From Nannochloropsis oceanica (Eukaryota; Sar; Eustigmatophyceae; Eustigmatales; Monodopsidaceae), in NCBI GenBank assembly GCA_004519485.1, contig CP038109.1:706001-770000 (forward strand): a stretch of 64,000 bases of DNA. The letters are read 5' to 3'. The position numbers and the translations under genes were made by a program. Within the stretch, counting starts at the first letter, position 1. The number at the start of each line of letters is the position of its first letter. Below, in pieces: positions 971-28,993 of this stretch. The notes under the pieces are model-generated. The model was not told the DNA's origin. It was given only the letters and a program-made list of their open reading frames with translations, and made no database searches.

Positions 971-3900
971 TTAAACTGCCTCGTCATCGTTGGGCGGGTC
1001 TTCTAGGACAAAAGCCCCATATCTCACCCCCTTTACCCGCAATGATAGCGTCGGGGGCAACACAGCCGTCTCCGCCAACTCCGCCCCGCGCTTGACACTA
1101 CAATTTCTCAGCATCAGTGATGCCGAGCCAACCCTAGCACGGTCCTCCACAATAATTGGCCCAAGCACCAGACTCCTTCCTTCCAACGCGTTCGGCATCA
1201 ACACCGCATCCGTGTCCAAGACAGCCTGCTTCCCCACTGTCACCAAGTCCGGCTCCGTGATCACCAACGTATTCACATACGCGCTCCCATCCACCTTCGC
1301 TCCCAGTAATCTCAAATACCAGGGCGCCAACACCGACCCCCTCAATGTCTCCAGCGCTGCAGTCCCAGCATAATTCTGTAACACCAACGTCTGAATCCGC
1401 GCGTGGTACGACGGGCCCCGAACAGGCACCGTCATACCCTCCTTCTGTCGCCAGCGCAACGCCCACTTCTCTACGACGACCACCACCAAAATTGACACCC
1501 AGAAAATGAGGAAGGCAATTGGCGTGGCCACCTGCGCGAGCAACACGGACCAGCCCGCGCCATTCGCAGTTTTATCCGCCATGGCCCACAGATAGAAAAG
1601 TACCGTGGGGTATGCCGCCACCAAGACCAATAAAAGCGTCAAGCCACACGATAGCAACGGTGCCAGCAGCCCCTGAACGCCCCGCATCACCAACCACTCG
1701 TGCCCACACGACCCCAATCCCCACCTCAAACACCCACCCAAGCTTCTTCCGTGCCCCTCCACCGGCGCATTGCCTGGCAAGGAAGACCGTTCCAAAATCT
1801 TGACGGCAGGCACACCCATCATCACGGCATCAGCTGCCACCACCCCCCCAGCCACCACAGACTGAGGCATGACTATCGACCCATCCGACATCTCCGTCCC
1901 AGAGGCAACCACTCCTCGCACGCCCACCACGCAGTCCTTCCCCACCTTGACCCGTTCACAAACCGCATACCCATTCCCGGGCTCATTAACTGTTTCCAAG
2001 GCCGCGTAGTCTGTGATCGTGCTTTGATTCCCCAAGGAAATCAAATGCGGGTCCTCAAACACGTCCGTGTTAGCAATCACCACACTCTTCCCCACCCTCG
2101 CCCCCAGCGTCCAATACCACGTCGGCAAGAAATCCGTGCCCACAAACAAACGCATGAAGCGATCATACGCCCACCGCATCACCGAAATCCTAACCTGACG
2201 CAAATGTGCCTTATACCCTCGGACCCGATAGGCATTGCTGCGAACAGGCGGGGCCAACAAGATATAGTACACCAGGTTGGTCAAGAACGTCAAGATAAAA
2301 CCCTGAATCATAAAGCCCAGGGCAAAGGTCCAGACGACCCCAAACACACCATACATCGTCGCTGCTGGTAGACCAAAGGCATCAAGCATCACTTCCCTCA
2401 CAGCTTGTGCGCCCGTGGTCACGAATACAAGGGAGTCAGTCCCCGGCGTACCCTCCAACGTCATGCCCGCTGGCAACGCCGGCTTGATTAGATCCACCCC
2501 TTCCTGGGTTTTGAACAAACCACGAATAGCGTCGGCTGTAATGTCCGCCAAGCCAGCCTGACGTGCTGTGTAAAGAAGTACAGCATCGGGGAGCAGGGCT
2601 GCCTGGGCCGTCAGGGAGGCCATGGACGCAAAGAGGGTGGGGAAGGCAATCATGGGCACCACGCCAACAGTGGAAAAAAGCGCAAAGATCACGGGGCCCT
2701 CTGTCCAGGTGTACCAGTTGAAGAACGGGTAGATCTCCAGATACACTGCCAGTGCCGCCGTCGGCTGGTAGGCAATGGCAGCGGCGATCACGGCCAGGAC
2801 AGGTGCCAAGAACGCCTGCAGCACAAAGCACAGCACGTCCAAGGTCACGATTCCTGGAGTATCTCCCTGGTGTGCTGCCGTGTCTATGTCATCACGCGGG
2901 CGCCGGAACCGAGAAGGAGACGACTCGTAAACGCTGTTCTCCGCCAGCTGCTGCCCCTCCACCGCCACAGACAGCCGATCCAACAGCGAGTCCCGCCCCA
3001 GCAGCGAGCCAGGCATCATCACCGCGTGCGTGCCGACCTGTGCCCGCTCTCCCACCACGATCGGTCCTCGTCGCAACACCCCATCACGGACAATCGAGCT
3101 AACCAACCGCGCGCCTTTTCCCAAAAGCACATCCTTTCCCAGCTTAATCAGATCGGGGTCAGTCATCACCACCCCCGCGTTGAAGCGCACATTGTCGCCA
3201 ACTGTCGCACCCAATGCCCTCAACCACCAGATATACAAGAAGGTACCTTTCATGTGATCAACGTACACTGGGCTGGTCAATGCAAGCAATCGAGTCATGA
3301 ACCACCATCGCAAGAACGCCATAGAATTCACCGTATAATCCCCAGCGGGAAGGTTACCACGGGTCATGATCTCCCGCAGGATTAACACCTCCCCCGCCAC
3401 GATCAACCCCACCAGGTGATAAATTAAGGGAATCAAAGCCAACGTCGCCGCTTGTCCCAAATTGTCCAAGGCAAGCGTCACCAAGGGCCAAACAAGCAAA
3501 ACAGGTATCGCAAGCACAGTGCCGATGATCCCCGTACCTATCAATTGCAAAAATGCCACCACAACCGTCGGCAATGCCGTGCCCCGTACCTGCTTCTCCT
3601 CTCCCGCCGCCGGTGCCGCACTGCCCGAATCGATCGTTACAGGTAGACCACTCTTTGCGGCCAACATCCCAGAGCTACCAGTAGCACCCGCCTTGGAGAC
3701 AGGGGCTTGGAAGGGCGTATCCTTCTTCTTGCGGGAAGCCGTGGGAAGTAGGACCTCTCGCGTGTTGAATGCGAAACGCTGCATAAAAACCCCCAAGTCT
3801 TTCATCGAGTGCCCAGGCCCCGAAGCCAAGTTGACGACATACTCCGTGTTCTTCCTGTTTGCTGCGAGGCGGGCCACTACTGACAGCTGGAGACTTTGCA

Positions 3901-6900
3901 CATTATTGTCGCCAATGGCCCCGACCTCCTTCCCGGACAAAGGCTCCTCATGGAAGGCAAATGCTGGGACACCTTCAGGTACAGGACGAAGCGCCCCCTC
4001 CGTTGTACGGATGGAAGGGGCTTGCAGTAGCTGCAGGGTCTCGTCCACCGTCTCTCGGACGTGATACGCAAGCTCGCCCGGTCCACGGGAAGCGTGGGCG
4101 CGTTGGAGGGTCACATTGAAAGGAACAAGAACAGGCCCCACCACATCACCGCGGGCTACATGCTGGTCGAGATCGACCAAGACGGAGGCCTCGTTGTTTT
4201 CCGAACGTTCCCACAGGGAGAGGAGGAAGGCGGACAGGAGGACAGTGGAGGGGGGAACGCGGTTCTTGATCGCATAAGCACTCAACTCGGCGGCCAGGGC
4301 GGTGGGCAAAGTCAAGCTCACTGATTGGGAGCTGTCCTTGGGCTTGCTGCTCTCCGTCAGGCCAGTGATGCTCATCGGCACGAGAGTACGAGCCTTTTCG
4401 CTGCCCACGGAGGAGGCCCCAGAACGGAGAGAACGTGCCCCTCCTGAGATGCTAGGGCTGCCCTTGATTTCCTGGGTAGCCGCTTGCCTCATTGCATCTT
4501 GGTAGGACATAAGGGGAGGGGAAAGGGTGGGACCAGCAGCACCAGGAGCAGCCGAAGCAACAGCCTGGGACATCATGTAAAGGCCGGTGAGCTCGCTGCC
4601 GAGGAGGCGGAGGGACCAGCGATCCAGTAACATGCGCGGCACAGCTAGGAGGACAGTGGAGTCCGTAGGGTTGGTGCTGGTCTTGGTGGCGAACTTGACG
4701 GACAAGAGACGGGCGCCCGGAACATTGTTCATGGTGTCGGCAGCATTACCTAGAACAACCTCTAAGCTGCGGGTGTCCTTGGCCTTGCTTGCCAATATCA
4801 CCGACCCATACATGTCCTTGAACGGCGTATCTTCCAGCGGCAACACCTGCTGCCGCCCAATTCCCTCTGCGGGCTTCAAGTCCAAAATCGTCCTCAGGAC
4901 AGGGTGTCGCCCCAAAAGTTGCCGCCAAGCCTCCACCAACGCATGAGGCGCCAGGGAACCATGGAAGGTAATCTCTTGATATATGTAAGAGCGGCTAAGA
5001 CCTTGGGCAAGTAGGACCTCTTGCCCCAAGGAGAGGGGTAAGGAGCGCTTCGAGTCCACTATGCGATCGAGCTGTGTGGCCACATACTTCGAGAGGAGTT
5101 CCACAGTCGGGTATTCAAGCAGCTTGCCCAAGGCAATGTTGACCGGGAAACGACGAACAAGCGTCTCAATCAGCTCCACCGCCTCCAAAGACGCAATCCC
5201 ACAATCCCCCAAATTCTGTGTCTTGGTGATGTCCTTCCCCGTCGCCTTCTTTAAGCTGCTAATCATTGCGTTCTCAAGCATTTCTGCCCTCTCCCATGGC
5301 GTATCCAGCGCACCATACGCCTTGACATCGTCGGTCAAGGGCAAAGGCTCCTTTTTGGGGGGAATGCGGTGCTTGACCGGCTCAAAGCACTCCAGGTCGC
5401 CCGATATCATGTACTCGGGTCCACGCTGCACAAATACCGACCACTTCACAGGATGGCAACACACCATTTTGGGCATGGCCATGGCACTGCGATTTAAAAG
5501 AGTTGACAACACCAGGCTGCCCAAGCTCTTGGTAATAGAGGGGAACCCAATCGAGTCAAGCAATTCCAAAAAGGATGGCTCCGCAAAACCCACCCCGACC
5601 CACACACCCCACTGGAAGCTCGTCCCCACCAAGCCTGCTTGACGTCGCAAGACCGCAATGCAGTCCAATGCCGTGTTGGCAGCCGAATAATTCGCCTGTC
5701 CAGGCGAGCCCATCAAACCCGAGGACGAGGAGTAGGTAATCCACAGATCCAACGGGCGGGCCTGACGAACGGAGGCCATGTGCAAATTCACGGCCCCATC
5801 TACCTTCCCCCCCCATACAGCCCCAAGTTTGTCCACGTCCTGCTGCCGCAAGTTACCATCAGCCAGAATCCCCGCACAATGGACAATCCCTCGAATGCCA
5901 CCCTCGTGCTCAAACTCCTTAAACATCTTCATCACCGCCGCCCGCTCCCCCGTATCACAAGCAAACGGGCGAACAGTCACCCCAGGAATCGACGACAGCG
6001 CCTCCAAATCTCCCTTATATTGAGCCGTTGGCTTCCCTCCGCGACTCGTTAGAATCAGCTTGGTCGCCCCGTGGCGCACCAGAGCATTAGCGGCATGCAG
6101 GCCCAACCCACCCAACCCACCTGTAACCAAATACCAGGCGTCGGGTGTCAAGGTCTTGCGGATCATCACGTCCACCCCAGGAGGGGGGAAAACGTTCGCA
6201 CGGGTGGCCTCCTCGATCTTCTTTTGCACTACAGGGTCGATGTCGTCCTGGAGTTCGGCCTCACGCAGCTTCTGAGTGAGCCACTGCCCACGGCGGAAGG
6301 CCAGCTGCTCGGGAGGATCATTGCGACCATAGCTCGAAGTCTCGGTATCCAGCAGCTGCAGCAGACGTGCCGCGGCTGGTACAGCTAGTTTGAGGTCAGC
6401 TGCGGCGTTGCCCGAGGAGGAGGGAAGGAGGGCAAGCTGGTCCTTGCTCGGGCCGGGGAGGTCCATCATAGACACCCACAAGAAAGGATAAGATTCCTGC
6501 ATGGCTGACTTGCCCAGGGCCCACAGAGGCGCACTCATCGATTGTACGCGATCCCCAGGAGCAACAGCTTTAGCGCGGGTCGTGACTGTCCAAATCTTAA
6601 TGCGTTTCCCTTGCCCCATCTCTGCCACGGACCGCAGCAGACAAAGCATCTGCGCAGTCTCCCCGAAAGCTGTATCGGTGAGTCGGCTCAAATCGTCCAA
6701 TCCCGGCGCCTGTCCTCCGCTCTCCCCCCCCGCAATATAAATAATCGCTATGGTGTCAGCCTCATTGGGACCCGAAAGGAATGCCTTCAGCTCATCCCCA
6801 CCCGCTAACAAATCCACCCCCGCCACATTCGCCTTATTTGGGTGATCCCCCAAGGCCGCCTTAGCTGCCGACTCTGAATCTTGCGGCACCAACACTGCGT

Positions 6901-9900
6901 GGCTCCTCTCCCTCAGCACCTTCACCGATGCCAACGCCGCAGCATCGGTGGGCTCCGAGCAAATGTATACCGTGTGTGCCGGCGGCAGAATCTTCCCCCG
7001 CGACCCACGATGCTCCTGTCGCAACATCCAAGACTCTTCAAACAGGTTCGTCTTCCCATAATCAATCCGCTGGGCATCGACCGAGGCATCCAATGCCTGC
7101 TGCTGGACATGGGTGGGTTTCTCGCCCCTCAATGCTATTGCATTAGCAGTCAGCTTCCCGAGAGCGATATGCACAGTATGATCAAACGGATACAGAGGCA
7201 ATTCCACCGAAGAAGGCACCGGTGGTCCGACCTTCAAAGCCTTGAACTTGAGATTCACCCCCGCAACATAAGCCTTCCCAAAAGCTTCCACCAACCGCAA
7301 ATTCTCGTCCCCTCTCCGTGCCTTCGTCATGCTTGGGATGAGCGCCACATTCGGGTCACGTGAAGGGACAATGCGCTTCGCCATCGCGGTCAAGGCAGCA
7401 TCAGGCCCCAACTCGATAAACACACGCGGGCGTCCATCCCTGAGAAGGCTATGCATGCCCTGTAGGAAGAGCACGGGCTTGCGAACGTGTTCCGCCCAGT
7501 GCTCTGGCCCAGGAGCCTCTGTCATTAGGCCGCCCGCGAGCAGGGAGACCAGCTTGGGGGTTGACTTGGGAGCCTTGACATTAATCTCGTTAACGATCTC
7601 ACGCATCGAGGGAAGGGCGGACTCCATGTGGGAGGTGTGGAAGGCCCGCGCGACATCTAGACGCTTGAAGCGAATGTCCTTCTCCTTAAGATGCTCCTGC
7701 ATGGCGTCCAACCCACTGAAGGACCCCGCAATGGTCACGCAGTTGTCGCCATTGACGGCAGCTATCTCCACTTTATACGACTCGCAAAGAGCTTGCGCTT
7801 CCGCTTCGCCCACAAACACCACAGACATTCCCCCCCGACCGGCAGGCACGGCATGCATAGCTTTCGCACGCACGCAGATCAATTTCGCAGCATCAGCAAC
7901 TGACAAGATACCGGCCAAAACGGAAGCAACGATCTCTCCCACCGAGTGGCCCATCACCACGTTCGGCTCCACCCCAAGCATCGCCCACACCCGCGTCAGA
8001 GAATACTCGATCGCGAACAAGGTAGGCTGAGACTGTAAGGTGGTGGTGTCGCCCACGGCGTGGTCGTCTTTGGCCAACACCACCGTCTTTAGCACTGAAA
8101 AGCCCAGGTGAGGAGTAAGCAGCGCGTCGACCTCATCCATGCTCGCGCGGAAGATTGCATTGCGCTCATACAGCTGGCGGCCCATTCCTTTGTAACCCGC
8201 GCCTTGTCCTGTGAACATGAAGACAACCTCTGGGGGCTGCGCTGTCTTGTTGACTGGCTTGGTCTCCCCCTCCTCCATCAACTCCTTGAGAGACGCGTGA
8301 AGCTCCTCAGCCGAGCGCCCCGTGGCCCCAACACGGAAGCCGTGATGGTGCGTGCGACGGGTGCTGGCCTCCAGGCACGTCTCCACGGCGCGGTCATAGG
8401 ATAAGACCTTGCCGCTGCCCTCCCTCCCCGAGCCCACCAACAGGTCCATGTAGCTTACGACCAGCTTTTTCAAGGCCTCCTCCGAGCGAGCCGACACAGG
8501 CAACAGCAGAGGCAAGGGCTGCTTGGAAGAGGATGTGGCAGTCACCGCCGTGTCGAACCCCTCGTCGAAATCGAAGTTCTTCGGCACACTTTCAAGCACG
8601 CAATGGGCATTCGTACCCCCAAACCCGAAGCCACTCACAGCCCCCACCACCGTTGCTCCGGGGTCATCTTGGGCTCCCTCCTCAAGCAACGGCATGTTCG
8701 CCCGAGGAATAATAAACGGCAGACGCTCCCAAGGAATCAAAGGATTGGGCTGTTCAAAGTGCACCGCCTTAGGCACCTGGCCATGGTACAACACCAACGC
8801 ACATCGAATCAAGCCCATCACGCCAGCAGCCGCTTCCAAATGACCGATATTCGACTTGACCGACGCAATAATACAACGGAACTTGCTACCATCCTCCCTA
8901 TCACGGCCCGCCTGCATCACAGCCCCCAACGCCGCCATCTCGATCGAGTCTCCCAGCTTGGTCCCCGTCCCGTGCGCCTCTATATACCTCACTTGGCTCG
9001 GGCTGATATGTGCGTCACGATAAGCAGCACGCAAGACCGCCTCTTGAGCCAGAGGGTTAGGCGCAGTCAGAGAAGTGGTCTTCCCGTCATGGTTAACGGC
9101 AACTCCACGAATAACCGAGTAAACACGATCCCCATCCGCAATCGCCCGGCTCAACCGCTTCAGCACGACCATACCACACCCCTCCCCGCGACAGTACCCG
9201 TCACCAGTCGCATCGAAGGTGCGGCAGGCCGTGGACAAAAATCCAGCCTTCTTCAACGCCGTAGAAGCAGAAGATGACAAGATCAAATTCACTCCACCGG
9301 ACAGAGCCATGCTAATTACCCCCAAACGCAAGTCCCGGACGGCATCATTGACAGTGACCAACGAAGAGGAACACGCTGTGTCCAAAGTAAGGGAAGGCCC
9401 ACGAACATTCAGCATGTACGAGACTCGATTCGCCACCAAAGAATTACTGATTCCCGTAGCTGCCCACGTGCTGCTCTCCCCCCTGAGCGACTCCAGCACC
9501 GCAAACTCGTGCGAGATCGCCCCAATATATACACCCACCTTGCGCCCGCTCAAGCTAGCCGGCTCGATCCCTGCGTCTTCCAGGGCCTGCCAAGTCACCT
9601 CAAGAGCGTGGCCCTGGTGATAATCCAAGTGCGTGGCTTCCGCTGGACTCATCCCAAAGAAATGCGCATCAAACGTATCCACATTATCAATATAACCCCC
9701 CGGCAACATCAAGCTTTCGTCCGTCTTCCTCTCCACAGGCATATCCTCTCTCACGGCATCCGCCCCCGCCATACTAAATTTCCAGAACGCCTCCTTTCCA
9801 ATTAAGTTTCCGGACGGCCCCCCCGGCGCCCGCACACCCATCCCTACGATTGCAATCGGCGCCTCCAAGTCCGCCTCGATCGCATCATCGGTGTCCCCAT

Positions 9901-12517
9901 TGCTCAACTCCGAGTCATCCGCCCCCCGAGACAGAAATCCTGCAATCTCTCGAATGGTCGTGTACTTGTACACAATCGCCGGCGAGATCTCTTTTCCCAC
10001 CCACTCCCCCATTACCCTCCCCAACGCCACAAATCCTGCGGAATCAAATCCCAACAAAGACATAGGCTGGTCGATGTCGACGCTTTCTTTTTGGATCTCT
10101 CGAGTCTTAACCACATAATCCACCAACAGGTCAATAAACGCCTCATGCTCCTTTGTAATCCCTCCCTCCTCCCCGTCATCCCCCTCCCCCTCCTGCTTAC
10201 TGCGAGACTGCACTGCCACAGGGGAGGGCACGTCCCAATGGTCTGCACCCAATATCTGCTCCTGTTCCTGCCGCTCCTCCTCCCCAGCAGGGCTGCCCGT
10301 CGCCGCGGGCACCTCCCCAACGGCAGGAAGCTTGACAGGAGCCATTCCCGATGCGGATCCCAGAAGCGAGGACGTCCTCCTCTTCATCGGGCTACGTTGG
10401 TAATTGGTCTCAGGCGAAGAGAAATCGTCTTCGAACTCGGCTCCTCCAAAGGTTGCAGACACAAACGAGTCGTCCGACATGGCATCATCGTCACCGTTCT
10501 GACTGTTCAAGCTCAAGGCGAGGACGTCCACCTTGGTAGGAGGGGGAAGTGCAAGTCCGTTAGCGCTACCCACGGCCTCCCACAGGAATGCCGTCTTGAG
10601 GGAACCATCGCGGTAGCCCAATTTACACTTATGCCGTTGAATCTTCCCGGAGGTAGTTTTGGGGATGGAACGAGGTTCGACAAGCACCACCACCGAGACA
10701 GCCACCTGGAACTCCTCGGCGATTAATCTCCGAATCTGATCCACCGTCCCCTGGAGCAACGTATGATCGGTTGTGTTATTTCGCAATTCAGCGACATACG
10801 CAACAGTCTCCTCCCCATTGCAATCCAGGGAGAACGAACCGGAGCAGCCCGGGCGCAACATGCTATCTAATCCCGCTTCTACCGCATACTCAATATCCTG
10901 GGGGTACAAATTCCGCCCCCTCACAATAATCAAATCCTTGATCCGTCCAGTGATGAACAATTCACCATGCCATAGAAAGCCTTGATCCCCCGTCTGCAAA
11001 TACACATGCCCCGAGTCCTCCTCTCCCTTTATTAATCCCCTAAACGACTCCTGCGTCTTTACATCGTCATCAAAGTAACCTTTCGTCTTACTCGGGCCAT
11101 CCAGCCAAATCTCCCCAATATGCCCCTGCCCCTGACAAACCCTCGTGTCTGGATTTACGATTCGACACTGCGTCCCATCCTCCTTATAAGGTCCTCCCAC
11201 CCCCACATAGCATGCAGCCCCCGGCGTGTCCTCAGGTACCAACACAACCTTTCCCGTCGACCCCAACACCTGCTGATCCACATACAGCACGTTCAACACC
11301 CTCCCCGATGGCTGGGAAGTCGCACACAAGGTGAACTCCGCCAGACCATAAGCAGGCATGAGGACCTTAGGATCAAATTTACTCTTGGCAAAAAACGCGA
11401 AGAAAGATTGCATCACCTCAACCCTGATCGGCTCGGCCCCGCAAATCACGCACTGAATGCACGACAAGTCCATACTATCACGAAGGGCCTCCGAAGTCTT
11501 GCGCTGGGCGAGGGCAAAGGCAAAATTCGGTGCACAGGTGACAGCGGCACGGTAGCGGTGGAGAGTGTAAAGCCACATGGTCGGATCTTGGAGGAAGGAG
11601 ATGGGAGTCATATAGATGAGGTGGGTCCCAGTGGAGAGGCACTCCAGGAAGATCCCGATCAAACCCATGTCGTGGTATTGCGGAAGCCACGAGACGACGT
11701 TCAGCTGGTTGGTGTATCCGAAGATGCCGACGGAACGGAGGGAGAGGAGGCGGACCTGTGCAATAAGGTTTGCATGGGTCACCATCACACCCTTCGGGAA
11801 GGAGGTGGAGCCGGAGGTGTACTGCAGAAATGCAAGGTCATCTGGGTCAGGGTCGGGTTCAACGAGGAGCTCTGTATGTGCGTATGACTTGCGGATCTTG
11901 TCTGTTTGTACGTTGCGGAGGTTGGGCCAGGTGGCGCCCTTGGCGAGGCCGACGCGGGAGAGCATGTTCTTGACGGCTATGCCGCGGATGACCAACATGT
12001 ACTGAGAGTCTGTCAGAGCTACTTTGCAGCCGGAGTTATTCACAATCATATTTAACCGAGGAAGGTCTGTCTCCATCCGGTAGGGGTGGGGAGGGTACAC
12101 AGGCACGGCCACCACGCCAGCCACAATGCACCCCAAAAAGGCCAAGATAAACTCTTGACCAGGCGGGTAGAGTAGGACGGCCCGGTCACCAGGACGCAAG
12201 CCCATCTCCCGCTGCAAGTAGGCTGCAATGCGATCAGCGCAGTCCATCACGTCCGAAAACGTCTGCACCTCGATTTCTTGCCCCTTTCCATCTAAATACG
12301 TCAACGCTCGCTTCTCCGCGTAGGAGGACAACAAGAACTTGATTGCCTTAACGACCGTCAACCGCTTATCCTCCGCCGAGAGCTTGTCCACGGCCAAACA
12401 AATCTCTTCGGCTGTGGCGTCGTCGCACCAGTTGCCAATGCCATCCCAGCCGCGGCCCTTGTTCCACCGCGCGCCGGGAGGCGCGGCCGAGCCCTTGCCG
12501 TTCGTCGTCGCCGACAT
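971..12517 (-). CDS. Giant type I polyketide synthase: FAAL-ACP-KS-AT-KR-ACP-degenerate C-membrane beta-helix terminus
   Basis: One uninterrupted 3848-aa frame. Modules in order: fatty acyl-AMP ligase (about 55-660; ANL loop YTSGSTSFPKG near 233); acyl carrier protein with GFDSAG, Ser826; ketosynthase (from about 884; Cys1049 in TACSSS, His1182 in HGTGT, His1226 in NIGHLE); acyltransferase (Ser1525 in GHSVGE, RAFH at His1627, consistent with malonyl-CoA); ketoreductase (GGLGGLG near 2132, Tyr2277 in QANYSAAN); second ACP (Ser2443); an NRPS condensation-like domain whose HHxxxDG is PRMLLDR (2627-2633); and from about 2976 to the end a multi-TM region with three hexapeptide beta-helix blocks, resembling the NRPS terminal domain of unknown function. 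There is no DH, ER, thioesterase or reductase. By family logic it activates a free fatty acid, adds one malonyl unit and reduces the ketone to a 3-hydroxyacyl chain. Product and release mode are inference. Confidence 0.93.
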   Translation of the reverse strand: MSATTNGKGSAAPPGARWNKGRGWDGIGNWCDDATAEEICLAVDKLSAEDKRLTVVKAIKFLLSSYAEKRALTYLDGKGQEIEVQTFSDVMDCADRIAAYLQREMGLRPGDRAVLLYPPGQEFILAFLGCIVAGVVAVPVYPPHPYRMETDLPRLNMIVNNSGCKVALTDSQYMLVIRGIAVKNMLSRVGLAKGATWPNLRNVQTDKIRKSYAHTELLVEPDPDPDDLAFLQYTSGSTSFPKGVMVTHANLIAQVRLLSLRSVGIFGYTNQLNVVSWLPQYHDMGLIGIFLECLSTGTHLIYMTPISFLQDPTMWLYTLHRYRAAVTCAPNFAFALAQRKTSEALRDSMDLSCIQCVICGAEPIRVEVMQSFFAFFAKSKFDPKVLMPAYGLAEFTLCATSQPSGRVLNVLYVDQQVLGSTGKVVLVPEDTPGAACYVGVGGPYKEDGTQCRIVNPDTRVCQGQGHIGEIWLDGPSKTKGYFDDDVKTQESFRGLIKGEEDSGHVYLQTGDQGFLWHGELFITGRIKDLIIVRGRNLYPQDIEYAVEAGLDSMLRPGCSGSFSLDCNGEETVAYVAELRNNTTDHTLLQGTVDQIRRLIAEEFQVAVSVVVLVEPRSIPKTTSGKIQRHKCKLGYRDGSLKTAFLWEAVGSANGLALPPPTKVDVLALSLNSQNGDDDAMSDDSFVSATFGGAEFEDDFSSPETNYQRSPMKRRTSSLLGSASGMAPVKLPAVGEVPAATGSPAGEEERQEQEQILGADHWDVPSPVAVQSRSKQEGEGDDGEEGGITKEHEAFIDLLVDYVVKTREIQKESVDIDQPMSLLGFDSAGFVALGRVMGEWVGKEISPAIVYKYTTIREIAGFLSRGADDSELSNGDTDDAIEADLEAPIAIVGMGVRAPGGPSGNLIGKEAFWKFSMAGADAVREDMPVERKTDESLMLPGGYIDNVDTFDAHFFGMSPAEATHLDYHQGHALEVTWQALEDAGIEPASLSGRKVGVYIGAISHEFAVLESLRGESSTWAATGISNSLVANRVSYMLNVRGPSLTLDTACSSSLVTVNDAVRDLRLGVISMALSGGVNLILSSSASTALKKAGFLSTACRTFDATGDGYCRGEGCGMVVLKRLSRAIADGDRVYSVIRGVAVNHDGKTTSLTAPNPLAQEAVLRAAYRDAHISPSQVRYIEAHGTGTKLGDSIEMAALGAVMQAGRDREDGSKFRCIIASVKSNIGHLEAAAGVMGLIRCALVLYHGQVPKAVHFEQPNPLIPWERLPFIIPRANMPLLEEGAQDDPGATVVGAVSGFGFGGTNAHCVLESVPKNFDFDEGFDTAVTATSSSKQPLPLLLPVSARSEEALKKLVVSYMDLLVGSGREGSGKVLSYDRAVETCLEASTRRTHHHGFRVGATGRSAEELHASLKELMEEGETKPVNKTAQPPEVVFMFTGQGAGYKGMGRQLYERNAIFRASMDEVDALLTPHLGFSVLKTVVLAKDDHAVGDTTTLQSQPTLFAIEYSLTRVWAMLGVEPNVVMGHSVGEIVASVLAGILSVADAAKLICVRAKAMHAVPAGRGGMSVVFVGEAEAQALCESYKVEIAAVNGDNCVTIAGSFSGLDAMQEHLKEKDIRFKRLDVARAFHTSHMESALPSMREIVNEINVKAPKSTPKLVSLLAGGLMTEAPGPEHWAEHVRKPVLFLQGMHSLLRDGRPRVFIELGPDAALTAMAKRIVPSRDPNVALIPSMTKARRGDENLRLVEAFGKAYVAGVNLKFKALKVGPPVPSSVELPLYPFDHTVHIALGKLTANAIALRGEKPTHVQQQALDASVDAQRIDYGKTNLFEESWMLRQEHRGSRGKILPPAHTVYICSEPTDAAALASVKVLRERSHAVLVPQDSESAAKAALGDHPNKANVAGVDLLAGGDELKAFLSGPNEADTIAIIYIAGGESGGQAPGLDDLSRLTDTAFGETAQMLCLLRSVAEMGQGKRIKIWTVTTRAKAVAPGDRVQSMSAPLWALGKSAMQESYPFLWVSMMDLPGPSKDQLALLPSSSGNAAADLKLAVPAAARLLQLLDTETSSYGRNDPPEQLAFRRGQWLTQKLREAELQDDIDPVVQKKIEEATRANVFPPPGVDVMIRKTLTPDAWYLVTGGLGGLGLHAANALVRHGATKLILTSRGGKPTAQYKGDLEALSSIPGVTVRPFACDTGERAAVMKMFKEFEHEGGIRGIVHCAGILADGNLRQQDVDKLGAVWGGKVDGAVNLHMASVRQARPLDLWITYSSSSGLMGSPGQANYSAANTALDCIAVLRRQAGLVGTSFQWGVWVGVGFAEPSFLELLDSIGFPSITKSLGSLVLSTLLNRSAMAMPKMVCCHPVKWSVFVQRGPEYMISGDLECFEPVKHRIPPKKEPLPLTDDVKAYGALDTPWERAEMLENAMISSLKKATGKDITKTQNLGDCGIASLEAVELIETLVRRFPVNIALGKLLEYPTVELLSKYVATQLDRIVDSKRSLPLSLGQEVLLAQGLSRSYIYQEITFHGSLAPHALVEAWRQLLGRHPVLRTILDLKPAEGIGRQQVLPLEDTPFKDMYGSVILASKAKDTRSLEVVLGNAADTMNNVPGARLLSVKFATKTSTNPTDSTVLLAVPRMLLDRWSLRLLGSELTGLYMMSQAVASAAPGAAGPTLSPPLMSYQDAMRQAATQEIKGSPSISGGARSLRSGASSVGSEKARTLVPMSITGLTESSKPKDSSQSVSLTLPTALAAELSAYAIKNRVPPSTVLLSAFLLSLWERSENNEASVLVDLDQHVARGDVVGPVLVPFNVTLQRAHASRGPGELAYHVRETVDETLQLLQAPSIRTTEGALRPVPEGVPAFAFHEEPLSGKEVGAIGDNNVQSLQLSVVARLAANRKNTEYVVNLASGPGHSMKDLGVFMQRFAFNTREVLLPTASRKKKDTPFQAPVSKAGATGSSGMLAAKSGLPVTIDSGSAAPAAGEEKQVRGTALPTVVVAFLQLIGTGIIGTVLAIPVLLVWPLVTLALDNLGQAATLALIPLIYHLVGLIVAGEVLILREIMTRGNLPAGDYTVNSMAFLRWWFMTRLLALTSPVYVDHMKGTFLYIWWLRALGATVGDNVRFNAGVVMTDPDLIKLGKDVLLGKGARLVSSIVRDGVLRRGPIVVGERAQVGTHAVMMPGSLLGRDSLLDRLSVAVEGQQLAENSVYESSPSRFRRPRDDIDTAAHQGDTPGIVTLDVLCFVLQAFLAPVLAVIAAAIAYQPTAALAVYLEIYPFFNWYTWTEGPVIFALFSTVGVVPMIAFPTLFASMASLTAQAALLPDAVLLYTARQAGLADITADAIRGLFKTQEGVDLIKPALPAGMTLEGTPGTDSLVFVTTGAQAVREVMLDAFGLPAATMYGVFGVVWTFALGFMIQGFILTFLTNLVYYILLAPPVRSNAYRVRGYKAHLRQVRISVMRWAYDRFMRLFVGTDFLPTWYWTLGARVGKSVVIANTDVFEDPHLISLGNQSTITDYAALETVNEPGNGYAVCERVKVGKDCVVGVRGVVASGTEMSDGSIVMPQSVVAGGVVAADAVMMGVPAVKILERSSLPGNAPVEGHGRSLGGCLRWGLGSCGHEWLVMRGVQGLLAPLLSCGLTLLLVLVAAYPTVLFYLWAMADKTANGAGWSVLLAQVATPIAFLIFWVSILVVVVVEKWALRWRQKEGMTVPVRGPSYHARIQTLVLQNYAGTAALETLRGSVLAPWYLRLLGAKVDGSAYVNTLVITEPDLVTVGKQAVLDTDAVLMPNALEGRSLVLGPIIVEDRARVGSASLMLRNCSVKRGAELAETAVLPPTLSLRVKGVRYGAFVLEDPPNDDEAV

Positions 12518-18154: not shown

Positions 18155-20524
18155 GGTGAGGTGTGAAGAGGAGTACAGAGAAGGGAAGGGGAGAAGGGAA
18201 GGGGAGGGCAAGAGGAAAAAGACGTGGGAAGAATCAATGAAATTAGACTGGGGGTGTTTGTCTGATTCCTCCAGGATGCTGGTTTATGTGAAATCACTTG
18301 ACCCGCTGCTTTTTGAGAGGCTGATTGATCCTTGCTTATTGTTATTATTCGCTTTCCGTGTGGTAATTAAGTATTTGATTGGATTAGACTGACAAACGTT
18401 TGGATGGTCGGGCCATGGGCCAGGCCGGAACGAGAAACACCTCATGAATAATGGAGGACGGAAAGAGCGAGAAAGATGTACATCCCTGTGCGTTGGTTTG
18501 TGGGGGGAAGAGTGTGCTATCTCCTGCCCCGCACAAACCCTGCACGCATCACACCAGCCCTTGTTATATTCACTTCGTACTGTATTCATTGAGTGCGTGG
18601 AGGCCTACCTTTGCGTTGCGCCGTGGTTTGTTCTCCCTCGTCCACCCGACATGGGCACAGCCTGCCAGATATGACAACACCCTTTTAATAACCCACCCGC
18701 ACATGCTATCACAGCGGCCATGCATCCCACATCCACGCCGATCACGAGCGCGCTTGTCTCCCCTTTACCTCTAGCGGCACCGGGCTCTCAATTCCTGCTC
18801 TTGTTCCATGTCTTTGGACGAACCTACTCTTTCGCATGACACCAACCATGCTCACAGCCAACTACCACCGCGCCTTGATGCGCGCATCACACATGCCTTG
18901 CGGCAAATCCACTTCCCGCGCCACCCGCGTACCTTTCTCGATGCCTGCTCCCTTCATGCATCCTGACTCCTACACCCCTTCCTAGTACACACCTGCCTCT
19001 TGAGTCCCGCCCTCCGGCCACCACATCATATATATGCACATACTGTACACAGCTATCCCCCGCATTAAACATGCACGGCTCGTCCTGTGCCTCCTGTCTA
19101 TCACACCTAGCCTCGTGCATCATCCGATCCACCCTACGTGTCCGTCTCCTATCATGGGGTTTGGGGTTGCGCCTTGTGTGTAGGACCGTTAGAGATGCCA
19201 CTGGCGTCGCCACCAACCCACCGCCACCATCAGCCAGCAGCGGTAACCCCCACCTGTTTTGACAACTCCCACTCTCATCGATCGAATCAACTTGTACCAC
19301 CACCACAAAAGCTTGCCTTTCGCGGCGCTTGCCCTTCGCGGCGCTTGCCCACTACCTTGTCATACTCATGTGTGAAACATTTTGAGCGCCACACGGAACT
19401 TTAATCGATTTTATGGATCAAGAGAAGGAAAGGGAAGGACGGGATAGTATGTTGTATATGTACGTGTTGCTATACTATGCATTAGGCTTTTGACCCAGTC
19501 AACACCAAGGTCGGTTCTTTGGAGGGAGGGAGTGCTATGTCAGGAGACACGCAACACTTCTAACATCTTTAACCAGGACCGCAGTCGCGCCTCTTTGCTT
19601 CTCTGCGTCAGGACAAGTTTTCCAGCCCCTTTGAAAAGGTAAATTTGTTTTTGGGGAGTGTGTCAAAGCCAGTTTTCGCATATGCTTGTAGCGCGTGTAG
19701 AAGAAGAGCCGCCCCTTCCTGCACGCCCTTGATTTAGATCTTAGCGGCTTTCCGTGAGGGCACCGGCGACGTGCCCTGTGCGGCGCTGCACTGGAAGGGT
19801 TTCGAAAAAGGTACGGCGCTTGTTTCGCGTTGCTCCTGTTTCCTGTCCCTCTTCTCGTGAGATTGAGTGTACCTGCTCCTCATTGATGGTATACCCTCCC
19901 ACCTGCCCGCATCGGACCTGCCAGACTGTCTCTTTCCACCTGCCTTAAACCTCCCTTATCGCTTTTTAAATACCATTTGATTGATGGACCGCTTGGCACC
20001 ATGGCCTAGGAAGGATGGAGATAAAGAAGAACAGAAAAAGGTTCGCCACACGCCCCTCCTCCCCGCCTTCTCCCCTCCCTCCTCTTCCTCTTGTGTCACA
20101 GATGGTGTCAAGCGACGTAATCTAAGCGAGCCCATCCACCCGGCGGTAAAGTCTATACCTCCCTCCAAACCTCTTCCTCCCTCCCACTTTCCCTCCCAGC
20201 GTTGCCTGCTGTGATCCGCGCGAGCTATTCCCTGAGGTTAGCCTCAACGTCTCGGTTTCAAACCAACGTTTGCCCCTTTCTTCTCTCTCGCCTCGATCAA
20301 TACCTTTTCGATTACTCCTCCTACGTGTGCGGGCTTGGAAACCCTTCCCCCCCATTGCCTCTTTCCTTCCCTACCTCCCTTCAGGGCCTGGAAGCCCGAG
20401 GGTATTGCACTCTTTGGTGATGCATATGCATTGTCTACGCACCGCCGCTGGTCTTCACGAGGTTCGATTTCTACTTAATTAACGTGGACGCTCGATTGAA
20501 GGATTTTTGCTGTCTGTGGGTGGG
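18155..20524. other. Gene-poor region between SERINC and the tandem array
   Basis: About 2.4 kb with only short frames lacking domain-like composition. A 16-bp unit (ttcgcggcgcttgccc) occurs twice in direct tandem at 19319-19350. No RNA gene, transposon terminus or conserved protein was recognised. Confidence 0.5.
19319..19350. repeat. Short 16-bp tandem duplication
   Basis: Two adjacent identical 16-bp copies, preceded by a near-match half copy (gcttgcct). It looks like a simple slippage duplication in intergenic DNA, with no evident function. Confidence 0.8.
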
Positions 20525-22812
20525 CTTGGAAACCCTTTCCCCCTTCCTTCCTTCCTTCATCATTTTCAAACAGCACCTGTCTGCTGGGGCGGTGATTCTC
20601 TGCGTCCGTGCGCGTCGCCATCGTTGATCGCCATCGAGGTTCGGTTTTTCCCTTGAGGACGTTTTGTGTATGTGGGTGGGCGTGGAAACCCTTTCCCCCT
20701 TCCTTCCTTCCTTCATCATTTTCAAACAGCACCTGTCTGCTGGGGCGGTGATTCTCTGCGTCCGTGCGCGTCGCCATCGTTGATCGCCATCGAGGTTCGG
20801 CTGAGGACGTTTTGTGTGTGTGGGTGGGCTTGGAAACCCTTTCCCCCTTCCTTCCTTCCTTCATCATTTTCAAACAGCACCTGTCTGCTGGGGCGGTGAT
20901 TCTCTGCGTCCGTGCGCGTCGCCATCGTTGATCGCCATCGAGGTTCGGTTTTTCCCTTGAGGACGTTTTGTGTATGTGGGTGGGCTTGGAAACCCTTTCC
21001 CCCTTCCTTCCTTCCTTCATCATTTTCAAACAGCACCTGTCTGCTGGGGCGGTGATTCTCTGCGTCCGTGCGCGTCGCCATCGTTGATCGCCATCGAGGT
21101 TCGGTTTTTCCCTTGAGGACGTTTTGTGTATGTGGGTGGGCGTGGAAACCCTTTCCCCCTTCCTTCCTTCCTTCATCATTTTCAAACAGCACCTGTCTGC
21201 TGGGGCGGTGATTCTCTGCGTCCGTGCGCGTCGCCATCGTTGATCGCCATCGAGGTTCGGCTGAGGACGTTTTGTGTGTGTGGGTGGGCTTGGAAACCCT
21301 TTCCCCCTTCCTTCCTTCCTTCATCATTTTCAAACAGCACCTGTCTGCTGGGGCGGTGATTCTCTGCGTCCGTGCGCGTCGCCATCGTTGATCGCCATCG
21401 AGGTTCGGTTTTTCCCTTGAGGACGTTTTGTGTATGTGGGTGGGCTTGGAAACCCTTTCCCCCTTCCTTCCTTCCTTCATCATTTTCAAACAGCACCTGT
21501 CTGCTGGGGCGGTGATTCTTTGCGTCCGTGCGCGTCGCCATCGTTGATCGCCATCGAGGTTCGGTTGAGGACGTTTTGTGTGTGTGGGTGGGCTTGGAAA
21601 CCCTTTCCCCCTTCCTTCCTTCCTTCATCATTTTCAAACAGCACCTGTCTGCTGGGGCGGTGATTCTCTGCGTCCGTGCGCGTCGCCATCGTTGATCGCC
21701 ATCGAGGTTCGGTTGAGGACGTTTTGTGTATGTGGGTGGGCTTGGAAACCCTTTCCCCCTTCCTTTCTTCCTTCATCATTTTCAAACAGCACCTGTCTGC
21801 TGGGGCGGTGATTCTCTGCGTCCGTGCGCGTCGCCATCGTTGATCGCCATCGAGGTTCGGTTGAGGACGTTTTGTGTGTGTGGGAGGGCTTGGAAACCCT
21901 TTCCCCCTTCCTTCCTTCCTTCATCATTTTCAAACAGCACCTGTCTGCTGGGGCGGTGATTCTCTGCGTCCGTGCGCGTCGCCATCGTTGATCGCCATCG
22001 AGGTTCGGTTGAGGACGTTTTGTGTGTGTGGGTGGGCTTGGAAACCCTTTCCCCCTTCCTTCCTTCCTTCATCATTTTCAAACAGCACCTGTCTGCTGGG
22101 GCGGTGATTCTCTGCGTCCGTGCGCGTCGCCATCGTTGATCGCCATCGAGGTTCGGTTTTTCCCTTGAGGATGTTTTGTGTATGTGGGTGGGCTTGGAAA
22201 CCCTTTCCCCCTTCCTTCCTTCCTTCATCATTTTCAAACAGCACCTGTCTGCTGGGGCGGTGATTCTTTGCGTCCGTGCGCGTCGCCATCGTTGATCGCC
22301 ATCGAGGTTCGGTTGAGGACGTTTTGTGTGTGTGGGAGGGCTTGGAAACCCTTTCCCCCTTCCTTCCTTCCTTCATCATTTTCAAACAGCACCTGTCTGC
22401 TGGGGCGGTGATTCTCTGCGTCCGTGCGCGTCGCCATCGTTGATCGCCATCGAGGTTCGGTTGAGGACGTTTTGTGTGTGTGGGTGGGCTTGGAAACCCT
22501 TTCCCCCTTCCTTCCTTCCTTCATCATTTTCAAACAGCACCTGTCTGCTGGGGCGGTGATTCTCTGCGTCCGTGCGCGTCGCCATCGTTGATCGCCATCG
22601 AGGTTCGGTTTTTCCCTTGAGGACGTTTTGTGTGTGTGGGTGGGCGTGGAAACCCTTTCCCCCTTCCTTCCTTCCTTCATCATTTTCAAACAGCACCTGT
22701 CTGCTGGGGCGGTGATTCTCTGCGTCCGTGCGCGTCGCCATCGTTGATCGCCATCGAGGTTCGGTTTTTCCCTTGAGGACGTTTTGTGTGTGTGGGTGGG
22801 CTTGGAAACTTT
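20525..22812. repeat. Satellite-like tandem array, 15 units of 148 or 156 bp
   Basis: Measured from each 'tggaaaccctttccccc' start, units begin at 20525, 20681, 20829, 20985, 21141, 21289, 21445, 21593, 21741, 21889, 22037, 22193, 22341, 22489 and 22645, with a truncated copy from 22801. Lengths run 156,148,156,156,148,156,148,148,148,148,156,148,148,156,156. The difference is an 8-bp presence/absence block (tttttccc context) before 'gaggacg'. Units are otherwise nearly identical. Units 1-3 and 4-6 share the same variant pattern, giving a 460-bp higher-order duplication. Two diagnostic variants recur: tgattctttgcg in units 7 and 12, and a gggaggg flank before units 10 and 13. Each unit has a CT-rich tract (cccccttccttccttcc) and a direct repeat of cgccatcg. 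The copies are contiguous with no unique spacers. Function unknown. Confidence 0.97.
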
Positions 22813-26329: not shown

Positions 26330-28993
26330 CTACCCTCTACTTCTCTCCTCAAGACGCTGTCCGAGCGGCCCAAACGTCCCACTCCTCTGCTCATCCAAAG
26401 CCTGATTCGCCATCGCATCCGCCTCTGAGTTTAAGGCCCGCTCCACGTGCCTAATCTCAAACTCCGGGAAACTGTCCTTTAACTCAATCGCCTCAGCATG
26501 CAATACCTTCAGCCTCTCGTTTCTCACCTTGTACTCCCCCATAATTTGCTTCACCACCAACAGCGAATCCCCTTCCACGCACAAGCGACGGATACCCAAA
26601 GCTTTCGCCGCCCGTAACCCTTCAATCAATCCTCGGTACTCTGCCTCATTATTAGTCAAGGGCGGGTCATCACCAAACCACAACGCCAAACTCCTTACCC
26701 GCGCTTGAGAGACCTTCTCATATATCACCACACCAGCACCGCCTGGGCCGGGGTTCCCTCGTGAGCCACCATCGAATTGTAGCAAGTACTCAGCAGTAGG
26801 ATTATATACATGGGCGGAGGGTGTGTCCGCTGTCGCGCTCGTCGAGAAACCTCGACGTCCTATTCCTTCTCCTCGAGCTGCGCCAACTGCTGCTCCTGTT
26901 CCTGCTACCCTTCGTGAGGCAGCCACTGGTACAGGTGGTGGTGCGTCAATTCTCAGTCCATGCGCGCCAAATGTCCCACTTTTCTCCTCATCTAACGCTT
27001 GATTTGCCAGGGCATCCGCCACAGGGTTCATCGCCCTCCTCACATGCTTAAAACTCACATCCTCAAAGCCATCCTTCAACGCCATCGCCTCTCTATACAA
27101 GACCTCAAGCCTCTCATTCTTCACGTTGTATTCCCCGAGCATCTGCCGAATAGCCAGCAATGAATCTCCCTCCACACACACCTTTCTAATCCCCAAGTTT
27201 TTCGCCATCCTTAACCCGGCGATCAGACCCTGGTATTCCGCCTCATTATTCGTCACCGGAGGATCACTCCCCAACCACACCGCCACCCCCCTCACCTTCC
27301 TTCCCGCCCTCCCCCTTGGTGTCTTGTAAAAAACAGCAGCACCGGCTCCAGCAGGTCCGGGGTTGCCACGAGCGGCACCGTCGAAGCGTAGAATATACTC
27401 AGCTTTTGGATCGATCGGGGGAGTGGCTGCTGCTGCTGCTGCTGCTGTATCTGCTACTGCTGCTACTGCTGCCTCTACTGCTGCTGCTGCTGGTCGAGCG
27501 TCGGATATAGGAGATGCTTCCGGTGGGGGCGCAAGGGAATCCTGTTTGTTCGAAAAGGAGGAGGAGGAGGCGGAGAAGGAGGAAGAGAAGGAGGAAGAGC
27601 CAGAAGGGGGGTAGGGGGAGACTGTAGCAGTGGGTGTCAACGTAATAGAGGGAAGATGCGGGAGCACGTGGTCCCAGTCCTCGTGATTGCCCCTCAATTC
27701 AGGAACAGGTTCGACCCACCCCCCTTCCCCCGCGCCCTCGCCCTCCGCCAGATCCACCGGATGATCGTACCACACGGAAAAGGAGGGGAAATGACGGATA
27801 GACGATTGGATCTTCTGATGGGCCGCTTGCAAGCCTGCCTTGCCACGGCTCTTGCTGCTGCTGCTGCTGCTGCTGGTCTCATTCAGCGGAGTCACTCCAC
27901 ATATCTCCCGGGCCATCTGTGCCGAGGGGACGCAGACTTGCATATTTTTCAATCCGAGGGCATAGGCAGCTGCGAGACCTTCGGCAAGCACTCCATAGGT
28001 TGCTTCGCGCTGGCCAGGGCCATTCCCAATCCACGCGCGAGTGCACCATACCTTGAGAGGTTTCGGATGTTCCTTGCGGGGGGCATGTGCAGCAGCAGCA
28101 GCAGCAGTAGTAGTGGTTGTAGTCGTAGTCATAGTAGGCCTTTCTATTGTATCACCTTCCTTGGTAATATCACCTTCCGCGACCAGGAGAGGTCGGCTGG
28201 AAGGGGAGGGAGGGGAGGTGGAGGAGGGTTCGCGGGCCTCGAGCCGGATGCGCAGGACATGCAAGGCATTGCTGTCAATATGGTGAAATGCCATACTGGC
28301 TGCCTTGGCGTCGCCGCCTGGGAAGACAAGGTGGGAGTAAGCGGGGGGTTGGTCTTGGAAGGGACTTTCGGGTTGGTAAAAACTGCGGGTGCTGGTGGAT
28401 GGAGGGGGTAATGGGGTGGCAGCGGGGGCAGCGGCATTGCTGATGGCTTTCTTCGCGGTCGCGGCCAAAGAGGTGGCGCTGTGTCGCACAATTGATTTAG
28501 GTGCGTTCAAAAAAGGCGTGGGAGCGTGATGTTGCATTGGCAGCTGCGTTGAGGGGGCAAGGAAGAGAGGAGTCCAAGCCGTTCGTCGCCGGGCGCGGGC
28601 CATGTGTGCGAATGGAGCTGTCACCGTTGCCACAGCACCTGCCCTGGCACGCACCAGCACATCACTTAGCGTTAGTAGGGTCGCCATAATTATGCCACGT
28701 CGACAAAGTGGACGTTTTGGTCTTAATCGAGCCCGTAGGTGCGAGGCACCGGGTAGACTTGACAACGAGGAGGGGAAAGACGCCGCCGTGGCCGTCTTGC
28801 TTGTCATGGAAAGGCGAACGCAGGAGAAAAGACACCTAGTATCAACCAGACATCTAGCTATCAGATAACCGTGCAATACCTGTATGTAGGTGTGCGGACA
28901 AATGTGGATGTGAGTGTTTGGTAGCTGCAAGGGTATCGAGGGAGAAGGGGAAAAGGGCGAGGGTTGTTGAAGGAAGAAGTGGTGTGATGACAA
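26330..28993 (-). CDS. Multi-RNase H-fold protein (two intact RNase HI-like domains plus a decayed copy)
   Basis: The open frame is 887 aa. Met63 at 28807 is a more likely start because a basic, Ser/Ala-rich presequence follows it. Two C-terminal RNase H-like (RVT_3 type) domains start near residues 531 and 734. Each has FDG.(A/S)RGNPGP (Asp538, Asp741), TNNEAEY with the catalytic Glu, EGDSLL with the second Asp, and a terminal ADA.ANQALDE. A third, N-terminal copy (about 215-440) is recognisable from GQREATYGVLAEGLAAAYALGLKNMQVCV but lacks the first Asp and the EGDS Asp. Ser-, Ala- and Thr-rich linkers separate the parts. RNase HI cleaves the RNA strand of RNA:DNA hybrids. An organellar role is inferred from the presequence. 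No reverse transcriptase is present nearby, so this is a host-type gene. Confidence 0.88.
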   Translation of the reverse strand: MSSHHFFLQQPSPFSPSPSIPLQLPNTHIHICPHTYIQVLHGYLIARCLVDTRCLFSCVRLSMTSKTATAASFPSSLSSLPGASHLRARLRPKRPLCRRGIIMATLLTLSDVLVRARAGAVATVTAPFAHMARARRRTAWTPLFLAPSTQLPMQHHAPTPFLNAPKSIVRHSATSLAATAKKAISNAAAPAATPLPPPSTSTRSFYQPESPFQDQPPAYSHLVFPGGDAKAASMAFHHIDSNALHVLRIRLEAREPSSTSPPSPSSRPLLVAEGDITKEGDTIERPTMTTTTTTTTAAAAAAHAPRKEHPKPLKVWCTRAWIGNGPGQREATYGVLAEGLAAAYALGLKNMQVCVPSAQMAREICGVTPLNETSSSSSSSKSRGKAGLQAAHQKIQSSIRHFPSFSVWYDHPVDLAEGEGAGEGGWVEPVPELRGNHEDWDHVLPHLPSITLTPTATVSPYPPSGSSSFSSSFSASSSSFSNKQDSLAPPPEASPISDARPAAAAVEAAVAAVADTAAAAAAATPPIDPKAEYILRFDGAARGNPGPAGAGAAVFYKTPRGRAGRKVRGVAVWLGSDPPVTNNEAEYQGLIAGLRMAKNLGIRKVCVEGDSLLAIRQMLGEYNVKNERLEVLYREAMALKDGFEDVSFKHVRRAMNPVADALANQALDEEKSGTFGAHGLRIDAPPPVPVAASRRVAGTGAAVGAARGEGIGRRGFSTSATADTPSAHVYNPTAEYLLQFDGGSRGNPGPGGAGVVIYEKVSQARVRSLALWFGDDPPLTNNEAEYRGLIEGLRAAKALGIRRLCVEGDSLLVVKQIMGEYKVRNERLKVLHAEAIELKDSFPEFEIRHVERALNSEADAMANQALDEQRSGTFGPLGQRLEERSRG

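Follow-up and report, generated by a model that had tools for sequence, protein, structure and literature searches.

The 64,000-nucleotide stretch of the Nannochloropsis oceanica genome analyzed here, referred to as the window (contig CP038109.1, positions 706,001 to 770,000), harbors a large gene that joins a fatty acyl-AMP ligase (FAAL) and a polyketide synthase (PKS) to a membrane terminal domain. The initial annotation, made from the DNA letters without database searches, had located this gene exactly, as a single 3848-residue frame on the minus strand. Its domain order, comprising FAAL, acyl carrier protein (ACP), ketosynthase (KS), acyltransferase (AT), ketoreductase (KR), and a second ACP, was borne out by Pfam, NCBIfam, motifs, and solved relatives. 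Profile searches place a weak condensation-like stretch and a membrane/beta-helix tail of about 870 residues behind this core. The features are listed in the order of the protein, with window coordinates:

971..12517, minus strand: whole gene, uninterrupted ATG-to-stop frame for the 3848-residue FAAL-PKS with membrane terminal domain
10583..12358, minus strand: FAAL, residues 54-645 (Pfam AMP-binding 66-482), from PDB relatives, NCBIfam FAAL models, and motifs YTSGST..PKG, YGLAE, and SGK
9932..10114, minus strand: first carrier (ACP1), residues 802-862, from Pfam PP-binding and the motif GFDS
8453..9862, minus strand: KS (Pfam 886-1255) with C-terminal extension, residues 886-1355, Pfam E 1.8e-66, motifs DTACSSS, EAHGTGT, and KSNIGH
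7262..8224, minus strand: AT, residues 1432-1752, Pfam E 2.2e-52, motif GHSVGE, RAFH at the specificity site
5600..6139, minus strand: KR, residues 2127-2306, Pfam E 1e-50, GGLGGLG, S-Y-N residues, and solved KR relatives
5072..5320, minus strand: second carrier (ACP2), about residues 2400-2482, from the second Pfam PP-binding stretch and the motif GIAS
3593..4987, minus strand: condensation-like stretch, residues 2511-2975, weak Pfam Condensation match, PRMLLDR (residues 2627-2633) at the HHxxxDG position
974..3589, minus strand: Pls/PosA-type membrane terminal domain, residues 2977-3848, from TIGR02353, AlphaFold2 model, hydrophobic stretches, and Foldseek
2888..3364, minus strand: beta-helix repeat 1, residues 3052-3210, best matched by the bacterial C1 profile (111 bits)
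1778..2260, minus strand: beta-helix repeat 2, residues 3420-3580, from alignment and repeat profiles, V3533 at the position of the bacterial invariant Asn
998..1450, minus strand: beta-helix repeat 3, residues 3690-3840, from alignment and repeat profiles, M-P-N (residues 3774-3776, window 1190-1198) at the position of Gln-x-His

That the gene consists of one exon is a reading of the open frame alone, which runs over 3848 codons with zero interruptions. The G+C content at third codon positions (GC3) is 0.61-0.69 across the ten parts measured, from the FAAL through the tail, and 0.85 in the 53-residue N-terminal extension. A junction of two genes by chance or assembly error, with the terminal domain as a separate gene, is conceivable insofar as the frame was read without a transcript, but the stop-free frame over 11.5 kb and the even GC3 from FAAL to tail make this explanation extremely unlikely.

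The whole protein was scanned with Pfam at E <= 0.1, yielding 16 families, and individual segments were scanned separately; NCBIfam results refer to the 25 matches listed of 199. Among the latter, PKS_plus_SDR is the best model, its 989 bits lying below the cut-off of 1740. The top solved relatives of the loading domain are 7r7e-g (a chain named ‘Polyketide synthase’, E 5e-110) and 3kxw (E 2e-99), both of which we take to be FAALs. They are followed by FadD23, FadD32, FadD28, or fatty-acyl-adenylate ligase chains (4e-75 to 6e-48), with the adenylation chains 6ulx/6ulw (2e-50) and McyG 4r0m (9e-47) at the lower end, and 4-coumarate-CoA ligases rank below the FAALs (~4e-26). NCBIfam FAAL models score 250-351 bits, each under its own cut-off, and the CoA-ligase-named model PRK07768 (309 bits) ranks amid them. 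Because FAAL chains outrank 4-coumarate-CoA ligases among the solved relatives, the loading domain is by kinship a FAAL, nearer to FAALs than to CoA ligases. FAALs are mentioned in eukaryotes, stramenopiles included (PMC11837247), and an N-terminal AMP-ligase is noted on a green-algal PKS (PMC4661987).

FAAL, KS, AT, and KR all retain their active-site words, and each carrier has its serine, ACP2 showing GIAS in place of GxDS. The AFH at the specificity site of the AT, here within RAFH, presumably points to malonyl. No thioesterase, sulfotransferase, dehydratase, or terminal reductase occurs among the 16 Pfam families or in the segment scans; the SDR-type matches all fall on the KR, and the Pfam list contains neither a dehydratase nor an enoyl reductase for repeated full cycles. 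The view that the protein lacks a releasing enzyme thereby stood up to a search for its contrary, as a thioesterase or reductase in the C-terminal ~870 residues was looked for in the Pfam list and segment scans and none was detected.

The architecture of the core is reminiscent of cyanobacterial olefin synthases (OLS), which are described to load a fatty acid, extend it by two carbons, and reduce it to 3-hydroxyacyl-ACP, followed by sulfation, decarboxylation, and release (PMC3903477). Matches at E <= 1e-50 were obtained in 31 of 69 cyanobacterial genomes searched, and five open frames with both a FAAL and a KS match (L135-L139, taken from a longer list) were compared. L136 (2721 aa) and L137 (2876 aa) are single proteins of the order FAAL-ACP-KS-AT-KR-ACP-sulfotransferase-alpha/beta-hydrolase. 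L138 (2293 aa) shows the same six-domain core with nothing detected past the second ACP, L135 carries an extra methyltransferase, and in L139 the KR was not matched at E <= 1e-5. Identity of the window protein to the five frames is 36-45% in the KS and 33-40% in the FAAL; for L136, it is 39% in the FAAL, 43% in the KS, 33% in the AT, and 37% in the KR. The six domains thus stand in identical order on one polypeptide in both systems, whereas the sulfotransferase and the terminal alpha/beta-hydrolase thioesterase (ST-TE) of OLS are undetected in the algal protein (Pfam, segment scans), which has the condensation-like stretch and the membrane tail in their place. Neither of these two parts matches the five cyanobacterial frames at E <= 1e-3. 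As judged from its domains, the algal core is olefin-synthase-like with ST-TE replaced.

The part following ACP2 had been called a condensation-like domain, and a weak profile match is indeed present, but both histidines of the HHxxxDG motif are gone (PRMLLDR). The Pfam Condensation match covers only the first half and stays under the cut-off whether the whole protein (E 0.0047) or just the segment (E 3.7e-5) is scanned. Twenty plasmid records match the stretch at E <= 1, with a best listed E of 0.04, and 14 of the 15 listed are annotated as nonribosomal peptide synthetase or adenylation proteins (one is unannotated). The sole PDB match is AmbE (E 0.072), with HHSVLDG opposite PRMLLDR in the alignment. 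An AlphaFold prediction from the single sequence without alignment gave a predicted local distance difference test (pLDDT) of 34 and a predicted template modeling score (pTM) of 0.22. The stretch is probably a degenerate condensation domain. Condensation domains are also noted on other algal PKSs, three of which are said to keep HHxxxD (PMC4661987). The presence of such a stretch could suggest a different product: the domain might join an N-acyl or ester lipid, or the PKS might work iteratively toward a compound that has nothing to do with diols; the clade-4 PKSs of N. oceanica are called iterative, and other algal PKSs contain the domain as well (PMC4661987). The missing histidines, in contrast to those three algal proteins, and the lack of detected domains for repeated full cycles leave a different product with a small probability.

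The terminal domain had been proposed to match TIGR02353, and this homology was confirmed: the model matches the last 872 residues in three stretches (E 1.3e-55, 189 bits), below its curated cut-off of 423.1, and a local profile built from 80 bacterial tails scores 237 bits on the window tail. Searched as a single sequence, the tail has a hexapeptide protein as its top PDB match (E 0.003). The membrane helices and three hexapeptide-type blocks initially described are likewise recovered, as seven hydrophobic stretches (helix count six or seven) and as three beta-helices in an AlphaFold2 model (43 aligned rows, pTM 0.77, mean pLDDT 72.4). In this model, the beta-helices, composed of left-handed repeats, alternate with long helices or helix pairs, the region between repeats 1 and 2 being poorly modeled. 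An insert of ~90 residues lies between these two repeats (window 2333-2605, about residues 3305-3395); it is absent in the five bacterial tails aligned, and a possible extra membrane stretch follows it. At E <= 0.001, the tail model has 143 PDB matches in Foldseek, among which the computationally designed protein 4dcl and galactoside/maltose O-acetyltransferases (E 2e-7 to 1e-6) rank highest. Each match spans ~190 of the 872 tail residues, and no Pls-type structure is found among the 50 of 143 matches listed.

On sequence grounds, the algal tail is distantly related to the polymerizing domain of poly-lysine and poly-ornithine synthetases (Pls/PosA). The initial annotation had described the terminal domain as one of unknown function, which is out of date for the family, because bacterial and fungal relatives are reported to polymerize amino acids with it: the tails of Pls, PDAP synthetase, PosA, and the fungal Epls do so without a thioesterase (PMC10522769, PMC4668381, PMC7179176, PMC9205021). 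Pls consists of adenylation and thiolation domains, six transmembrane segments, and C1-C3, and PDAP synthetase has seven transmembrane segments (PMC10522769, PMC4668381, PMC7179176, PMC9205021); three packed beta-helices are predicted for PosA (PMC10522769). Like the algal protein, all of these are carrier-bearing synthetases that lack a thioesterase and end in three tandem repeats amid membrane helices, and the seven hydrophobic stretches of the window tail equal the number of membrane stretches reported for PDAP synthetase. Unlike the alga, where a FAAL-PKS and the condensation-like stretch precede the tail, Pls and PosA have an amino-acid adenylation domain and a carrier directly ahead of it. 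The algal tail further differs by its low identity (20-26%), its score under the TIGR02353 cut-off, its ~90-residue insert, and the replacement of Gln-x-His, the repeat-2 Asn, and two Arg residues.

The bacterial context of such tails was compared at 85 loci, comprising the best 80 of 572 confirmed relatives from a genome scan with motif-based patterns and five of 11 matching plasmid records. The window adenylating domain is matched by 70 of the 85 tail-bearing frames, and none of them contains a KS, AT, KR, or condensation-like part at E <= 1e-3, four frames running off the contig on the left. Furthermore, 1913 genomes drawn from six phyla, six of them already among the loci, were searched with TIGR02353, scoring two to four candidates per genome. 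Matches at E <= 1e-15 occur in 83 genomes (at least 90 rows, some of them fragments), and the longest matching open frame encodes 1695 aa and is therefore too short for the FAAL-PKS-tail architecture. A fusion of the tail with a FAAL-PKS was not found in the bacteria sampled, myxobacteria and many phyla lying outside the sample, and whole-protein scans of genome contigs and viral contigs yielded no relative. By its sequence, the protein is a known OLS-type core combined with a known but altered membrane domain, a combination unmet elsewhere in this analysis.

Several bacterial relatives deviate from the common form. L113 and L105-L112, the latter from a draw on the phylum to which a Schlesneria contig belongs, constitute a divergent Pls-type group (336-390 bits, under the TIGR02353 cut-off) with QAHSFEDR or QAHTFEDR as C3 motif and VVDPDM ahead of it. 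The tails of L115-L117 reside in frames of 860-946 aa, with little room for an adenylation domain; L094-L097 form a similar group with longer frames, and both groups show QxHSxE[ED]G instead of QTHLFEDR. One ordinary Pls-type relative, L118, was retrieved by a scan with the tail alignment from an IMG/VR contig classed as viral (IMGVR_UViG_3300031372_000055), which may be misclassified host DNA.

The tail alignment comprises the window and 106 bacterial tails, i.e. 80 of the 85 loci (five incomplete ones were dropped) and 26 of 32 family-search matches (six repeats were dropped). Gln-x-His of C3 is present in 106 of 106 bacterial tails, including 31 rows found without the motif, and reads M-P-N in the window; the Asn of C2, equally present in 106 of 106, is replaced by Val (V3533). 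The window also lacks the Arg at 3469 (102 of 106) and the Arg at 3616 (104 of 106), the alignment being less sure in the latter membrane stretch. A conserved Glu near the extreme C-terminus was left unused, since the alignment is doubtful there. Invariance of QTHLFEDR as a whole was discarded, as the motif-independent sequences vary and Gln and His alone are fixed. The C2 Asn and the C3 His might together make up a single composite site of the kind present in hexapeptide acetyltransferases.

These residues bear on the idea that the tail joins 3-hydroxyacyl units to an oligo- or polyester feeding algaenan directly, as Pls joins lysines. The tails of Pls, PDAP synthetase, and PosA are reported to polymerize carrier-activated monomers without a thioesterase, and algaenan is a long-chain lipid polymer. 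However, residues invariant in all 106 bacterial rows are lost, and the literature depicts algaenan as C30-32 chains joined by ether bonds, so that a polymerizing tail appears very unlikely.

Profiles for the repeat classes C1, C2, and C3 were built from the bacterial tails, whose own scores are favored, as these sequences are part of the profiles. Window repeat 2 scores 67.7 on C1, 60.3 on C3, and 58.9 on C2, and repeat 3 scores 82.4 on C1, 73.6 on C3, and 44.9 on C2; bacterial repeats, being included in the profiles, reach a mean of 212 (minimum 124) on C2 and of 220 (minimum 153) on C3 as their own classes. In a tree of 88 repeats, bacterial C1, C2, and C3 form three groups (C3 weakly supported), with the window repeats on long unresolved branches; their best pairwise identities with bacterial repeats are collinear. 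An origin of the tail as a triplicated C1 unit was considered, repeats 2 and 3 scoring no better on their own class than on C1, yet it was not retained in view of the unresolved tree and the collinear identities. Because of these branches and identities, loss and never-gained are indistinguishable for the residues in question, and the tail may be either much decayed, or re-specialized, or a deep branch.

The tail could be an active acyltransferase with a rebuilt site that releases the 3-hydroxyacyl chain by transferring it from ACP2 to CoA or to a membrane lipid. The model matches hexapeptide O-acetyltransferase folds, and the tail follows the last ACP and the condensation-like stretch in a protein for which Pfam and segment scans detected no other release domain. 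With the bacterial Gln-x-His and the repeat-2 Asn missing, and with repeats 2 and 3 showing no preference for their own bacterial classes over C1, an acyltransferase function is nevertheless unlikely. Both the condensation-like part and the tail look catalytically altered. An active hand-over by the tail at the membrane, as originally suggested, was not borne out; because both parts behind ACP2 lack conserved residues of their families, the tail may serve as an anchor only. Anchoring and positioning of the carrier is more likely than polymerization, because the residues invariant in bacterial relatives are lost.

The following route could be envisaged for the enzyme. The FAAL would activate a free fatty acid, most likely C18, as acyl-AMP and load ACP1, the KS and AT would add a single malonyl unit, and the KR would reduce the 3-keto group to yield a 3-hydroxyacyl chain on ACP2. 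Because the motifs are intact and OLS provide a precedent, this sequence of one extension and one ketoreduction is strongly suggested, and the domain set supports the predicted chemistry of a 3-hydroxy long-chain acyl product put forward initially. The Pls-type tail would fix the enzyme to a membrane, probably that of the endoplasmic reticulum, where the 3-hydroxy C20 product might reach membrane elongases to form 13-OH C30 and 15-OH C32 acids and, subsequently, diols and algaenan; a step in trans or a rebuilt tail site could free the chain from ACP2. We give about an even chance to the complete proposal of a membrane-anchored, single-cycle FAAL-PKS that makes 3-hydroxyacyl-ACP and feeds elongases toward diols and algaenan.

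This proposal agrees with postulates for the genus. The secondary hydroxyl of Nannochloropsis long-chain hydroxy acids is described to be constant at omega-18, and a PKS with KS and KR but without dehydratase and enoyl reductase is postulated to produce 3-OH C18-20 acids from C18, less from C16, which elongases then extend to 13-OH C30 and 15-OH C32 (PMC8511707, citing Gelin 1997 and Balzano 2019). The window protein resembles this postulated diol PKS (Balzano 2019, via PMC8511707 and PMC10890015) in its KS and KR, the lack of detected dehydratase and enoyl reductase domains, and its predicted product. By simple arithmetic, the hydroxyl of a 3-OH C20 acid is at position 18 from the methyl end (20-3+1 = 18), and those of 15-OH C32 and 13-OH C30 are likewise omega-18, so C18 plus one malonyl would set this position. 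Shed walls of N. oceanica were found to contain a C32 diol, for which a role as algaenan precursor is proposed (PMC11211512); such diols are related to the long-chain hydroxy acids. The earlier suggestion of algaenan-like polymers gains weight, because a Nannochloropsis PKS restricted to KS and KR has already been postulated as the source of 3-OH C18-20 acids (PMC8511707), but it stays an inference.

Several points weigh against this assignment. Genomes of the genus are reported to encode several one-KS PKSs, four in N. oceanica CCMP1779 and two in N. gaditana (PMC4661987), and six PKS-like genes are reported for N. oceanica IMET1 and four Pks for N. salina; a different Nannochloropsis PKS gene could be the diol synthase. 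A C16 starter is allowed as well (PMC8511707), and C16+2 would yield omega-16, a misfit with the constant omega-18. Finally, a coding tail of 870 residues suggests more than anchoring. It can tentatively be proposed, as a rather doubtful extension, that the enzyme represents a novel kind of assembly-line ending, in which the releasing domains of an OLS-type PKS gave way to a membrane-embedded pseudo-trimer of amino-acid-polymerase-type beta-helices; lacking the residues that the polymerases conserve, it would have become a docking and hand-over station feeding elongation at the endoplasmic reticulum and setting the omega-18 hydroxyl of algaenan lipids.

Long-chain alkyl diols are proposed sediment temperature markers, algaenan is a very durable wall polymer, and the window gene is a concrete candidate for the starting step toward both. 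If the proposal holds true, a PKS would end in a polymerase-type membrane domain, a combination unseen among the bacterial frames examined, and this would be relevant to the release of carrier-bound acyl chains where a thioesterase is missing. In the literature available, the enzymes for long-chain alkyl diols and algaenan are proposed rather than proven by mutants. No mention of a Pls-type tail on an algal PKS was found in the passages and sections examined of papers on Nannochloropsis PKSs, figures, supplements, and Balzano 2019 being outside this scope. The window gene may have been noticed in print before, because the enzymes for long-chain diols, PKSs and dehydratases, are called ‘identified’ with reference to Balzano 2019 (PMC10890015).

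As for the surroundings, eight of the 13 other open reading frames (ORFs) of at least 330 aa in the window were scanned with Pfam; seven matched (PPR, Serinc, DUF1415, RNase H, TANGO2, a Na/Ca exchanger with EF hands, and SDR) and one did not. These eight do not suggest a gene cluster around the FAAL-PKS, whose end lies 970 bases from the window edge. PPR, Serinc, TANGO2, and the EF-hand exchanger are eukaryotic-type genes, and the style of the genes, along with the one-KS PKSs published for N. gaditana and N. oceanica (PMC4661987), suggests a Nannochloropsis-like eustigmatophyte. A single frame at window 26330-28993 shows two RNase H-like (RVT_3) stretches. A tandem unit of 148 bases is repeated in 15.2 copies (95% alike) at window 20505-22809 and contains several overlapping 151-aa mechanical ORFs. 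Near the far end, an ORF at window 62879-63961 is largely a Pro/Ala/Val repeat, and a 123-base unit at window 63235-64000 occurs in 6.2 copies (97% alike) that reach the window end.

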